From: Candidatus Aenigmatarchaeota archaeon | Lineage (GTDB): Archaea > Aenigmatarchaeota > Aenigmatarchaeia > CG10238-14 > SCSR01 | Length of the DNA stretch: 64,000 nt | Assembly (NCBI GenBank): GCA_016181005.1 | Contig: JACPAE010000003.1 | Span: forward strand, 1-64,000 | Direction of reading: 5' to 3' | Shown here: in pieces, positions 44,490 to 51,005 of the stretch | How positions within the stretch are numbered: the stretch's first letter is position 1 | Layout: each line of letters opens with the position of its first letter | The notes under the pieces: generated by a model | What the model saw: only the letters and a program-made list of their open reading frames with translations | What the model was told of the DNA's origin: nothing | Database searches by the model: none | Position numbers and translations under genes: made by a program

Positions 44490-44591
44490 GGGTTCATAGT
44501 CTAGTGGTAAAGCAAATTCACCTGAGGACGCAACCTTGACGAGCTAAGACTCAGAATGGTTGAGACCGCGGTTCAATTCCGCGTGGACCCA
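44490..44591 (+). tRNA. tRNA-Val(GAC) with two apparent introns
   Basis: GGGTTCA-TA-GTCTAGTGGTA-[AAGCAAATTCACCTGA]-GGAC-G-CAACC-TTGAC-[GAGCTAAGACTCAGA]-AT-GGTTG-AGAC-CGCGG TTCAATT CCGCG-TGGACCC-A; spliced length 71. Confidence 0.88.
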
Positions 44592-44778
44592 CTAAATTTA
44601 AATAAGATTAAAACAGTAGTTCCGAATGTAAATAACTACCAATAAATGTCATAGAATGAATCTGTTTGGCTAGTATCCTCATTTTACGCAATATTGATAA
44701 TTCAAAATTCGTTTATCGTAAACCCAGTTTCTACCAATGATGCAAACTGGATTAAACCAGCCTGAGAAATAGACTGTT

Positions 44779-45231
44779 ATGCGAAAACCAAATTTCGATT
44801 ATGCGAAAGCAAAACGGGAATTAAGGAAACTAGTTAAAATGGGCGTGTCCAAAAGAGAAGCATCGGTCATAGTCGGCGTCCCCTATCCTACTGCATTGCT
44901 CTGGACTCCAGACATTTATATGGACGCCGACAGCAGGATATCTGGGATAACGCTAAAAATTCTAAAAGAACTAGTATCAACTGGGTATTACTTTCCAAAC
45001 AGGAACCTCAGGGCAACTTTCGCCTACAGATTGCTGAAAAGAAGTTTCCCTGTTAAAAGGGTAAGGTCGCACGGCCTGGTTGTGTATATGATGAAGGGAA
45101 GCGAGAGGACAGCAATGGAGGAGTTGCTTAAGAAACTAAATCTGAAATCAGTAACATACGGTAAGCTCGGCTATATAAGAGACACTTTCGGAATAAAAAT
45201 TAATCCTAGGCGGGAGAAGATGATAATATGA
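44779..45231 (+). CDS. Predicted HTH DNA-binding protein, first gene of the methyltransferase operon
   Basis: KLVKMGVSKREASVIVGVPYPTALLW HTH-like; ATGA overlap with the next ORF. Confidence 0.5.
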   Translation: MRKPNFDYAKAKRELRKLVKMGVSKREASVIVGVPYPTALLWTPDIYMDADSRISGITLKILKELVSTGYYFPNRNLRATFAYRLLKRSFPVKRVRSHGLVVYMMKGSERTAMEELLKKLNLKSVTYGKLGYIRDTFGIKINPRREKMII

Positions 45232-45347
45232 AATCTGGTAAAATGAGAGGAAAACCAATGTGCAAGATGTGTGGTCATAAGTTCAGGAATGTAAGGGATT
45301 ATTTCAAGCACACTTGCGATGTTGATCAAAAATATGTTTATGGGTGA
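45228..45347 (+). CDS. C2HC zinc-finger microprotein (39 aa)
   Basis: MKSGKMRGKPMCKMCGHKFRNVRDYFKHTCDVDQKYVYG. Confidence 0.65.
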   Translation: MKSGKMRGKPMCKMCGHKFRNVRDYFKHTCDVDQKYVYG

Positions 45348-45351
45348 ATTT

Positions 45352-46509
45352 ATGAAAAAACTGAATGTTCTTGATTTGTTTGCTGGATGTGGGGGATTGA
45401 GTAAGGGATTCGAAAAGGCAGGGTTTAATATCCTTGCGGCTAATGAGATTTGGCATCCTGCAGCAGAGACTCACAGAATGAATCATCCGAATACTTTTAT
45501 GGTCGAAGGTGACATAACCAATCAAAAAATCAAGCAAATGTTAATCAAAATCTGTAAAGACAAGGTGGACGTAATAATAGGTGGTCCACCTTGTCAGGCA
45601 TATTCTGTGGCTGGTAGAAGGGATCCAACTGATCCAAGAGGAAAACTATTTGAGGATTATGTGGACATTGTAAAATCCCTCAAGCCATCATTCTTTGTTA
45701 TGGAGAACGTGAAGGGAATACTTAGTATGATGCACGACAGGGAGGATCTTGCAGACGATAAAATCAATAAAGTCCAAGAGATGAGGGAACAGGTTGATGA
45801 AATTAGTTCAATCTTGAAGCACAACAAGCTAAATGAAAATGAAGTGAAATTCTACAAGGAAAGGTTGCTACACCTAAAGAAGGACATCAAGCAGTATCAA
45901 GAAAAGGTCACCGATATGATTGCCAAAAGATTTAAGAGAATAGGTTACGATATGGGATTCCAAGTTCTCAATGCGGCCGATTATGGCGTGCCACAGAAAC
46001 GAGAGAGGGTGATTTTCATAGGAACAAACACAAAAAAGAAGATAACCTTTCCCACACCGACCCACTCAATGAATCCTCAAATAAAGTTGGATGGGAAAAA
46101 ACTGGACAAGTGGAATACTGTCGCCAAGGCCATAGGTGACTTGGAAAACAAGGAGGAAGACACAAAATTGCACCACATACTTCCTAGTCACAGTGTGGAA
46201 TTTCTTAAAAAAATTCAAAATACTCCAATAGGGAAAAGCGTTTTTAGGAATTACACTGATGCATTCTACAGGTGCAATCCCAATGAACCATCAAGGACTG
46301 TCAAGGAAAATCACAACGGCGTTTTTCTTCATTACTCTAAGGATAGGGTTATGACACCACGAGAATTGGCAAGACTACAAGATTTCGATGACGATTTCAT
46401 TTTTTTCGGTGGCAAGAGTTCAGTATTGGTACAAATCGGAAATGCGGTTCCAGTGGGATTGGCCAAAGCGATAGCCAGTCACGTAAAGGGACTAATCAAC
46501 ATAAAGTAG
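45352..46509 (+). CDS. DNA (cytosine-5) methyltransferase
   Basis: LDLFAGCGGLSKGFEKAG, GGPPCQAYSVAGRR, ENVKGIL, QIGNAVP. Confidence 0.96.
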   Translation: MKKLNVLDLFAGCGGLSKGFEKAGFNILAANEIWHPAAETHRMNHPNTFMVEGDITNQKIKQMLIKICKDKVDVIIGGPPCQAYSVAGRRDPTDPRGKLFEDYVDIVKSLKPSFFVMENVKGILSMMHDREDLADDKINKVQEMREQVDEISSILKHNKLNENEVKFYKERLLHLKKDIKQYQEKVTDMIAKRFKRIGYDMGFQVLNAADYGVPQKRERVIFIGTNTKKKITFPTPTHSMNPQIKLDGKKLDKWNTVAKAIGDLENKEEDTKLHHILPSHSVEFLKKIQNTPIGKSVFRNYTDAFYRCNPNEPSRTVKENHNGVFLHYSKDRVMTPRELARLQDFDDDFIFFGGKSSVLVQIGNAVPVGLAKAIASHVKGLINIK

Positions 46510-47304
46510 TTGGCACGTTATTGATAGGTCTTCTTCAGATACTCTTATTGGATTTCCGAGATTACTCGTATTGCGCTTGATTTTTTCCAATACATCCTCG
46601 GGTTTTTTGAGCCAGTCATCAGTATCCTTTAGGATCACGTAGAATCTGTTGAGTCCCCAATTGTTTATGGAATTGTTAGCCTGTTTCCTGAGCCTCTCAA
46701 CATCCGCACCACCAATTAACGAACTCGCAAACTCGGCAGGGCTGTCTTTTGCTTCGGAAAAGGACCAGCCATTGGGAACGCCACTATTCTTCAAATCATA
46801 CGGTATTCCCTTGAAGACAAAATCGGATACGCCTTTCTGTGCGATTGACGGTATCACGTCATCCACAGATTTGATAATAGTAGTTTCGGACAAGTCGTGT
46901 GTTGCCACAATGAAATATTCCTGTTTCATAACATCCTCGCCTACCTTCAAAAGCTCCTTTAATTTTTTCCCCTGACTTATCCATTCCCTGACTTTATTCT
47001 GAAATGAGAGATGCAAAAAGGATGGCATACTCCCGTGCCAGTTATGCCCTTCCAGCAAACCTGATTTAAGGTTGATCAAATGATATCCAATATCGGTGCC
47101 TACCCATTTTTTCCTAACAAAATTCCTGATTTGATCTATGCTTATTATGAAGGAGCCTGATGCCCTCAATTCTTTGGCTGTCTTTTCATAGCTAGTAACA
47201 CGAATACGAATCCCATTAGCTTTAAGAAATTCTTCTATGGCACCCTTATTCATCATAAACCGAAAGCAGTACTCACCCAGATCTTCATATCCCTCTTCAA
47301 ACAT
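46492..47304 (-). CDS. Type II restriction endonuclease-like protein
   Basis: KGVSDFVFKGIPYDLKNSG (D...DxK-like core); convergent to the methyltransferase. Confidence 0.7.
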   Translation of the reverse strand: MFEEGYEDLGEYCFRFMMNKGAIEEFLKANGIRIRVTSYEKTAKELRASGSFIISIDQIRNFVRKKWVGTDIGYHLINLKSGLLEGHNWHGSMPSFLHLSFQNKVREWISQGKKLKELLKVGEDVMKQEYFIVATHDLSETTIIKSVDDVIPSIAQKGVSDFVFKGIPYDLKNSGVPNGWSFSEAKDSPAEFASSLIGGADVERLRKQANNSINNWGLNRFYVILKDTDDWLKKPEDVLEKIKRNTSNLGNPIRVSEEDLSITCQLLYVD

Positions 47305-47719
47305 ATCTCACAGCCTTTATTATCTTGGTTATTATATTCTTTGGATTGTTTTTAAGTTGATGCTCCCAGACTCGTATTACAGTCCATCCAAGCCTCCTAA
47401 GTTTCTTTCTGACTCTCTGGTCCCTTTTCATATTGTTCGATATTTTGTTCACCCAAAAAACATTCTTTAATTTGGGTTTCAGATTATCCCAATTATATCC
47501 GTGCCAGAAATCACCATCCACAAATATTGCAATTTTTTGCCTAGGAAGTACTATGTCAGGATTTCCTGGCAGTGATTTGCGATGCAACCTATATCTAATT
47601 TTATCTTTCCATAACGCTTTTCGTAAAATCAGTTCAATCTTGGTATTTTTCGACCTTATGCTGGACATTATTTTGCTTCTGGTATCTTTGGAGAGCGTGT
47701 CTTTTCCCATAGAAATCAC
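47297..47719 (-). CDS. vsr: Very short patch repair endonuclease Vsr
   Basis: IMSSIRSKNTKIELILRKALW, LPGNPDIVLPRQKIAIFVDGDFWHG, RRLGWTVIRVWEHQL. Confidence 0.95.
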   Translation of the reverse strand: MISMGKDTLSKDTRSKIMSSIRSKNTKIELILRKALWKDKIRYRLHRKSLPGNPDIVLPRQKIAIFVDGDFWHGYNWDNLKPKLKNVFWVNKISNNMKRDQRVRKKLRRLGWTVIRVWEHQLKNNPKNIITKIIKAVRYV

Positions 47720-47883
47720 TATGCACGGTTTAACCCTGATTGTCTATAAGACACTTCATTTACTTCACATTGATGCCTGTAAAATTTCTCAACTTCAGTG
47801 AAACGAACACCACAAAACCTACATCTACGAACATACTTGCGTGGCTTGCCTCTTTTCATATTATTGTCTGTCACTTTTAACAT
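47719..47883 (-). CDS. C2HC zinc-finger microprotein (54 aa), paralogue of 45228-45347
   Basis: MLKVTDNNMKRGKPRKYVRRCRFCGVRFTEVEKFYRHQCEVNEVSYRQSGLNRA; stop TAG overlaps vsr GTG (TAGTG). Confidence 0.6.
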   Translation of the reverse strand: MLKVTDNNMKRGKPRKYVRRCRFCGVRFTEVEKFYRHQCEVNEVSYRQSGLNRA

Positions 47884-47910
47884 AAATTAAGCTAATCCAA
47901 TATTCACTTT

Positions 47911-48369
47911 ATGATAAATTACTGGATTTTCGTCATCGGTAATAGAAGAGATGGGCACGAACTTTTTGAAAACAAAACAAAATTCAACAAAGTGATGAAA
48001 AGGAATATGGTGTGGGGTTTAGGGTGGAGAACACCTAATGTAAGAAGAATAACGAATGGTGATAAAGGTTTATTTTACCTCTCGGGAAATGGGTGGCAAT
48101 GCATCATAGGTCAATTTGAAATCAGCTCAGAAGCCATAAAAATCGAAACTGACAATAAACAAAATACCAGCCCCATCTTATTGTACGGTGCAGGTTACTT
48201 TGTTAGACTGAAAAAATTCAGATCTTTCAAAAGATATGTGAAAATCGCAAATATTAAAAACCAGCTCGAATTGACAAAGAAATCGGCTTTTTGGGGCACA
48301 GTTCTTCAGGGTGGCACCAGAAAAATATCCGAAAAAGATTTCAATTATATTTTGAATATTTCCCGATGA
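47911..48369 (+). CDS. EVE/PUA-like domain protein
   Basis: MINYWIFVIGNRR...GDKGLFYLSGNGWQCIIGQFEI. Confidence 0.6.
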   Translation: MINYWIFVIGNRRDGHELFENKTKFNKVMKRNMVWGLGWRTPNVRRITNGDKGLFYLSGNGWQCIIGQFEISSEAIKIETDNKQNTSPILLYGAGYFVRLKKFRSFKRYVKIANIKNQLELTKKSAFWGTVLQGGTRKISEKDFNYILNISR

Positions 48370-49430: not shown

Positions 49431-51005
49431 GTGGAGCTGAGTCCCGTGAAGAACGCAACCACCACGAATAGAATAATAGAGAGAGAAATATATAAAGCAT
49501 TTATCAGACGCGGGTCTCAAAATACGGAACTGGCCGACCTGTTAGGCGATATACCCCTCGGCTTTTCTTTCAATCCAAGATTTGAATTCTCAGCAGCGTC
49601 TATGGTGAAGTCGCTAATCCTGATGAAATTGAAGGGAATAAAATCGCAGTCAAAGCTCGCTCTTTATCTTAGGACATATGAAAAGGATTCGATTAGACTA
49701 GGATTTTTCAATGATAGAGATAATAAATTAAGAACCCCAGACCAGAGGACATTGAGCTATTTTATCAAGAAACATCTGGACTTTGAGAAGAAGCAATTGA
49801 TAGAATTTGTATCTAAGAAAATAGAAGAGGTATCAGAAAAATTCAACATTGTTCTGGATTTGGAGATACTACACAAAAATACAGTAAAGGAAAGCAAAAA
49901 TGAGAAGACCTTTTACAATCGCAGAAGCGAGAAGCTGTCGGAACTCTGCAGGCTGGTAAGGAAGAAAATCTATCCGAAAATAAACCTTGGCATAAAGGCA
50001 AATTCCATTTTCAAGAAGAACAACTTTCTCGACATACTCGTCCACATAGCATTGACTGAAGATTTTGCAGAGAACGGCTCCAGGACATTTTCGCATATCT
50101 TGAATAAGAGGACACCAACATCTGACACATTGTTATACCACATTAAGAAATTTGAGGACGTTGAAGTCCTGCAGAAAATGTTCATCGGAATATTCGACCT
50201 TGTTCACAAAATGTCCAAAAGAAGCAATCTGTTCGGCGGAAGAAAAGTTGATGTAGCGATAGATTTCACGGACTGGTTCTACTACGGAAAGGACAGGAGC
50301 TTTATGGTTTTGGGAAAGAAGCCAGAAAGGGGAACTTCAAAATGCTTCAGGTTTGCCACGATAAATGTCGTGGAGCACGGAGAGAGATTCACGCTTCTTG
50401 CGCTTCCAGTATCGCCGTTTGATACGAAAGAAAAGATTATTGAGAAGCTCGTTTCATTCGCAAGAGAAAGAGTGCCGATAAGAAAATTGTATGTCGACAG
50501 GGGTTTCTTTTCCTCTGGCGTGATAAATCTCCTGAAGAGAATGGAAATAACTTTTCTCATGCCCGCTATCATGAACGACAGGGTGATTGATTACGCAAAC
50601 TCGGTAAGCCCGCCTTCCATAATAAAAGGATATCCGATGAAGGACTGCAAGTTCAACCTTGTAGTGGTTGAGAAGGACGAGAGAAGATACGCATTCGCGA
50701 CAAATATGAATCTCAATTCCAATGATATTCTGCTTTCCGAGAAATTGTTCACTCCTTACTCGAAGAGGTGGGGAATTGAGACAAGCTACAGAGTGAAAAA
50801 GAACTTCAGGGGAAAGACAACTTCAAGGAATTACATAATCAGGCAGTTTTATTTTATGATGTCTGTTGTCCTTTATGATTTGTGGATACTGATAAATCTG
50901 CTGTTGTCAATGTTTTTGTTTGGAAAAATCTCAAAGAAGGTTGCAGTTACGGCTAAATTATTCGGAACTGTTTTGTACACTATTGTCGATCCTGGTGGAA
51001 CTTAA
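49431..51005 (+). mobile_element. IS4-like DDE transposase
   Basis: 524 aa; VDVAIDFTDWFYYG (D), RKLYVDRGFFSSGVINLL (D), YSKRWGIETSYRVKKNFRGKTTS (YREK-like E region). Confidence 0.85.

Follow-up and report, generated by a model that had tools for sequence, protein, structure and literature searches.

Predicted paralogous single-finger C2HC microproteins encoded beside both halves of an archaeal type II restriction-modification island with Vsr

The HTH controller (C) proteins of type II restriction-modification (R-M) systems are small and are encoded just upstream of, or overlapping, the R-M genes. Among archaeal proteins, the small zinc finger Brz has its gene directly upstream of the one that it activates (PMC2253796). 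In the published definition of the CPxCG proteins the second Cys/His pair has two to three residues in between and is located 7-40 residues away (PMC2253796; PMC6562870; PMC11241148). AFV1p06 is an archaeal viral single finger that binds DNA in gel shifts, and single fingers, for example that of GAGA, can bind DNA with the help of extensions (PMC3541406). In the parts of a survey of EVE-domain proteins and R-M systems (PMC7641849) that were retrieved by a term search, zinc fingers appear only in eukaryotic DCD/YTH contexts and no microprotein is mentioned. Finger microproteins tied to R-M systems were not found described in the open-access literature. Archaeal single-finger microproteins are a known kind of protein; those considered here are tied to R-M islands.

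The stretch of DNA analysed here (the window; 64,000 nt, positions 1 to 64,000 of contig JACPAE010000003.1 from a Candidatus Aenigmatarchaeota archaeon) contains C5-methyltransferase (MTase) and Vsr genes, and with these carries what by sequence looks like a type II R-M island with Vsr. The island consists of two convergent units with the following features:

44490..44591 (+), tRNA gene with an intron (Rfam RF00005, 45.9 bits); island boundary, outside the mechanism
44721..44753 (no strand), 10-nt inverted repeat preceding the HTH gene; weak candidate operator for the HTH protein
44779..45231 (+), HTH-like protein, 150 aa, opening the MTase operon; 8 further genomes of the phylum have relatives
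45228..45347 (+), ORF1, predicted 39-aa C2HC zinc-finger microprotein (motif, homology to ORF2)
45352..46509 (+), C5-cytosine DNA methyltransferase, 385 aa (Pfam DNA_methylase, 8.6e-76)
46492..47304 (-), putative restriction nuclease, 270 aa (position and PD-(D/E)xK-like D161...D170-L-K172 only)
47297..47719 (-), Vsr-type mismatch endonuclease (TIGR00632, 5.5e-40, above cut-off; Pfam Vsr, 8.6e-30)
47719..47883 (-), ORF2, predicted 54-aa C2HC zinc-finger microprotein (motif, homology to ORF1, fold model)
47876..47918 (no strand), 11-nt inverted repeat around the ORF2/EVE gap; presumed promoter element
47911..48369 (+), EVE-domain protein, 152 aa, divergent from ORF2 (Pfam EVE, 1.5e-11)

As originally predicted, the island is convergent, the 3' ends of the MTase gene (46509) and the nuclease gene (46492) overlapping by 18 bp, and both microprotein ORFs are found where they had been placed. 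ORF1 lies between the HTH gene and the MTase gene, with the expected ATGA overlap of HTH stop and ORF1 start (45228-45231) and a gap of 4 nt (45348-45351) before the MTase ATG at 45352. In the opposite unit the TAG stop of ORF2 and the GTG start of vsr have the G at 47719 in common, which agrees with the proposed overlap; an ATG at 47710, 8 nt past the ORF2 stop, is an equally good alternative start. Both microprotein ORFs stop within or against a Shine-Dalgarno-like GTGA that precedes the next start (GGGTGAATTTATG and TAGTGATTTCTATG, respectively), and the ORF1/MTase and ORF2/vsr junctions look translationally coupled. The vsr and nuclease genes overlap by 8 nt. ORF2 and the EVE-domain gene are divergent and separated by 27 bp, and the 11-nt inverted repeat around this gap probably represents two TATA boxes, which is its simplest reading. 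The half-site of the 10-nt repeat upstream of the HTH gene shows no enrichment elsewhere within the window. Downstream of the island lies a DDE transposase gene (49431-51005, +); since this gene is found on one side and the tRNA gene on the other, the island may have been acquired horizontally.

ORF1 and ORF2 share the motif C-x2-C-G-x-[KR]-F-x2-V-x5-H-x-C-[DE]-V, downstream of RGKP, with CKMCG and CRFCG as the respective first Cys pairs. The residues are those named in the original prediction, the spacing is not, as one residue intervenes between CG and K/R. In a pairwise BLASTP comparison the two proteins show 12/33 identities (E = 3e-8), and in an all-against-all comparison of the 571 small ORFs of the window they form the top pair (E = 1.2e-5; next pair 0.002). 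The DNA pattern for CxxCG-x11-HxC has two sites in the 740-kb genome, ORF1 and ORF2, and its backward control has none. Over 27 aligned codons, different codons are used at 7 of the 12 identical residues, and at the DNA level ORF1 and ORF2 have nothing in common beyond chance words; the conservation is therefore at the protein level. Codon usage lends fair support to ORF1 and is neutral for ORF2, being no better there than in spurious ORFs, such that by codon usage alone ORF2 would go unfound. With a similarity above chance, ORF1 and ORF2 are, judged by their sequences, paralogous single-finger C2HC proteins.

The predicted model of ORF2 consists of a hairpin and a helix, with a core pLDDT of about 80. 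The PDB chains closest to it are for the most part C2H2 fingers, of which many superimpose at ~1 Å over ~22 residues; the insignificant E-values (4 or worse) are expected for a protein of only 54 residues. Both proteins match zf-C2H2 Pfam models below the curated cut-offs (ORF1, 14.4 versus 25.2 bits; ORF2, at best 17.2 versus 30.8 bits), and both are strongly basic, with net charges of +7 and +9, respectively. They would adopt the fold of a classical ββα finger, ending in H-x-C instead of H-x3-H, and would carry a basic arm containing RGKP, which we take to be an AT-hook-like core.

Like the C proteins, ORF1 and ORF2 are small and located just upstream of, and overlapping, R-M genes. Unlike the C proteins, they contain a zinc finger and no HTH, occur as two diverged copies, one for each half of the island, and have no shared operator that could be found, the best match between the two promoters being no better than that of random pairs. 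With the Brz/CPxCG small zinc-finger proteins (PMC2253796; Haloferax, PMC6562870, PMC11241148) they have in common a very small size, a single domain, a position upstream of a gene and a CxxCG first pair, but they differ in their R-M context and fall outside the published CPxCG definition, because the H-x-C second pair has one intervening residue. AFV1p06-type C2H2 fingers are similar in being single eukaryote-like fingers in small archaeal proteins, whereas AFV1p06 itself, compared by description only, uses Glu for its fourth ligand and carries an extension that is structured (PMC3541406). By analogy, ORF1 and ORF2 may work like the small archaeal zinc-finger regulators.

A search of 158 genomes with a profile built from ORF1 and ORF2 revealed one more candidate, on a contig of 1533 bp (L018) from a genome of the same order (G026). 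The C-terminal half of this candidate has E = 1.3e-4 with the two-member profile, which alone is only modest given 158 genomes. The gene (L018:181-350, -) is split by a 1-nt frameshift into a first frame, MKKKFKPQCIYCG, and a second, KYTSVKDYFTHTCEVAYVSWKQ. Read through with an X at the join, which was chosen post hoc, the protein has the CxxC-x12-HxC spacing intact, and its score with the original two-member profile is 36 bits (E = 9e-7 for 3 million sequences). In place of RGKP it has KP only. By sequence, the G026 finger is a probable third member of the family.

This third gene starts 2 nt past the stop of a gene for a 380-aa EVE-nuclease (L018:353-1495, -), a protein with a weak EVE match and a nuclease-like K-I-D...I-E-L-K motif, unrelated by BLASTP to the 270-aa nuclease of the window. 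As only 38 nt of contig precede the EVE-nuclease gene, a partner methyltransferase is out of view; two other genomes have homologues of the nuclease, each adjacent to an N6/N4 methyltransferase. In genomes G082 (L251:3271-5472) and G077 (L252:3660-5861) an N6/N4 methyltransferase lies next to an EVE/zinc-ribbon nuclease of the kind that matches PADLOC REase_II, the two making up an EVE-containing type II-like R-M pair. The one relative of the G026 nuclease that was tested matches the PADLOC REase_II model (6e-18), and the G026 protein itself scores below the threshold of that model. The neighbour of the third finger is thus probably a restriction enzyme, to judge from sequence similarity, and with a REase_II-matching relative located beside an N6/N4 methyltransferase, the link between finger and R-M genes is seen again, with an unrelated nuclease. 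The original prediction looked to conservation beside R-M genes elsewhere, and this is represented by one probable member, in another genome, that adjoins a gene of a REase family. The present loci also resemble those of the EVE survey (PMC7641849), in having a standalone EVE gene by an R-M system in the window and an EVE-nuclease by the third finger.

The nearest relatives found of the window's MTase are from Lokiarchaeota (46-47% identity). Their loci (L075, L076, L077 and L078) have nearby a MutY/mismatch-glycosylase-like gene, not Vsr, and two of them also a D12-class-like methyltransferase, all named by eye; the glycosylase-like gene is perhaps an alternative answer to T:G mismatches. For the 270-aa nuclease, none of the collections searched gave a family match or a convincing homologue, only two weak Asgard matches (0.0018 and 0.006), and its single-sequence fold (pLDDT 33) is unusable. 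Its D161...D170-L-K172 sequence is suggestive of a PD-(D/E)xK nuclease, and 'REase' is a tentative label for it. The 150-aa HTH-like protein has no Pfam match; its family, scattered within the phylum, shows a single HTH repeat or several at the N-terminus. HNH and methyltransferase-like genes are the neighbours of one relative (L258). A role of this protein as an R-M-specific regulator was rejected, its relatives in the 8 other genomes occurring in mixed contexts.

The finger family is known from two genomes only. No homologous finger was found at 91 loci of related MTases, nor at 13 further Vsr loci of the phylum, and none was seen fused to MTase or Vsr among their relatives. These Vsr loci include a second convergent C5-methyltransferase and Vsr pair of the source genome (L063, C5:101000-112000), which has no finger gene. 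Single-sequence searches of 146 relatives with ORF1 and ORF2 gave nothing convincing; the non-window matches inspected were out-of-frame stretches, unrelated ORFs and zinc-ribbon or HTH proteins, and L018, which was among them, proved real when read on the other strand. Single, two-member and three-member queries found no finger homologue in viral contigs, matches in phages and plasmids had E ~3 or worse, and 231 Asgard genomes yielded no convincing homologue, the most striking match (L267) being an out-of-frame reading of a membrane-protein-like ORF. Other CxxCG-x11-HxC sites across the phylum are, by eye, mainly transposase-type knuckles or unrelated ORFs. The family would thus be small and rare, with its known members beside type II R-M or nuclease genes.

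The leading guess, with a rough probability of 0.42, is that ORF1 and ORF2 are small DNA-binding local regulators of their own operons; it owes this place to the precedents of Brz, AFV1p06 and single fingers, and has a subunit function as its nearest competitor. Also in its favour are the protein-level conservation, the motif confined to these two ORFs in the genome, the position ahead of each half with its GTGA junction, the basic charge, the finger-like model and the probable third member. Each finger and the adjacent enzyme half would probably be on one message. The finger would most likely insert into the major groove of the DNA, with the basic arm alongside, and each finger would modulate its own operon, much as Brz controls the neighbouring bop gene. 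We infer in this way that ORF1 and ORF2 are translated, bind zinc and DNA, and have a regulatory role. Local regulation is made less probable by the frameshift and the downstream position of the third member, by the two promoters having no operator in common, by the related MTases and other Vsr loci that have no finger, and by the restriction of the family to two known genomes. The original prediction went further, in proposing matched controllers of a new type. Homology, the zinc-finger motif and the coupling to both the R and the M half were borne out. Matched control was not: no motif common to the two promoters exceeds chance, the gene of the third member follows that of its enzyme, and the 91 MTase and 13 Vsr loci are without a finger. 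The first two of these findings weaken a shared controller, and a new R-M controller is no more than plausible.

Alternatively, the fingers may be accessory subunits that bind the adjacent enzyme (the MTase, Vsr or the nuclease, and the EVE-nuclease in G026) and provide DNA affinity, specificity or folding in trans, which is only somewhat less likely than local regulation. One finger for each enzyme half, the tight coupling to the enzyme genes and the downstream position of the third member are in keeping with such a function, as is the zinc ribbon inserted in a relative of the G026 nuclease at a place where the G026 protein lacks one. However, this ribbon differs in fold from the finger, related MTases and Vsr proteins function with no such finger, and no fusion of a finger to an R-M enzyme was seen. 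A broader, unlikely proposal is that otherwise unrelated R-M systems of archaea draw on a mobile C2HC finger family as a common module for regulation or targeting, in which the modification half and the restriction/repair half each have a copy of their own; such fingers would be a zinc-finger counterpart of the HTH controllers.

It is improbable that ORF1 and ORF2 have no function as proteins and either are translated mainly for coupling to the gene that follows or are hitch-hikers in decay. Their very short length, the codon usage of ORF2, the frameshift in the third member and the narrow spread of the family would fit this, but protein-level conservation with synonymous change, the exact CxxC-x12-HxC spacing in both ORFs and nowhere else in the genome, and the recurrence of the finger beside a nuclease argue against it. 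RNA and proteins are among the possible ligands of basic single fingers, and ORF1 and ORF2 might act on RNA or as an immunity- or antitoxin-like restraint on the nuclease half. R-M systems do resemble toxin-antitoxin pairs in behaviour (PMC7641849), but this last explanation is very improbable, as it has no direct support and one copy is coupled to a methyltransferase, which needs no restraint.

R-M systems must modify before they restrict, and little is known about the mechanism of this timing in archaea. If each half of an R-M system is indeed linked to a eukaryote-type single finger, local regulation by ORF1 and ORF2, or the targeting of their enzymes, would be a compact case of archaeal zinc-finger regulation or enzyme targeting. 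The fingers look like a small, overlooked accessory family, the role of which is a guess; if the family is real, annotation length limits would conceal parts of defence systems.
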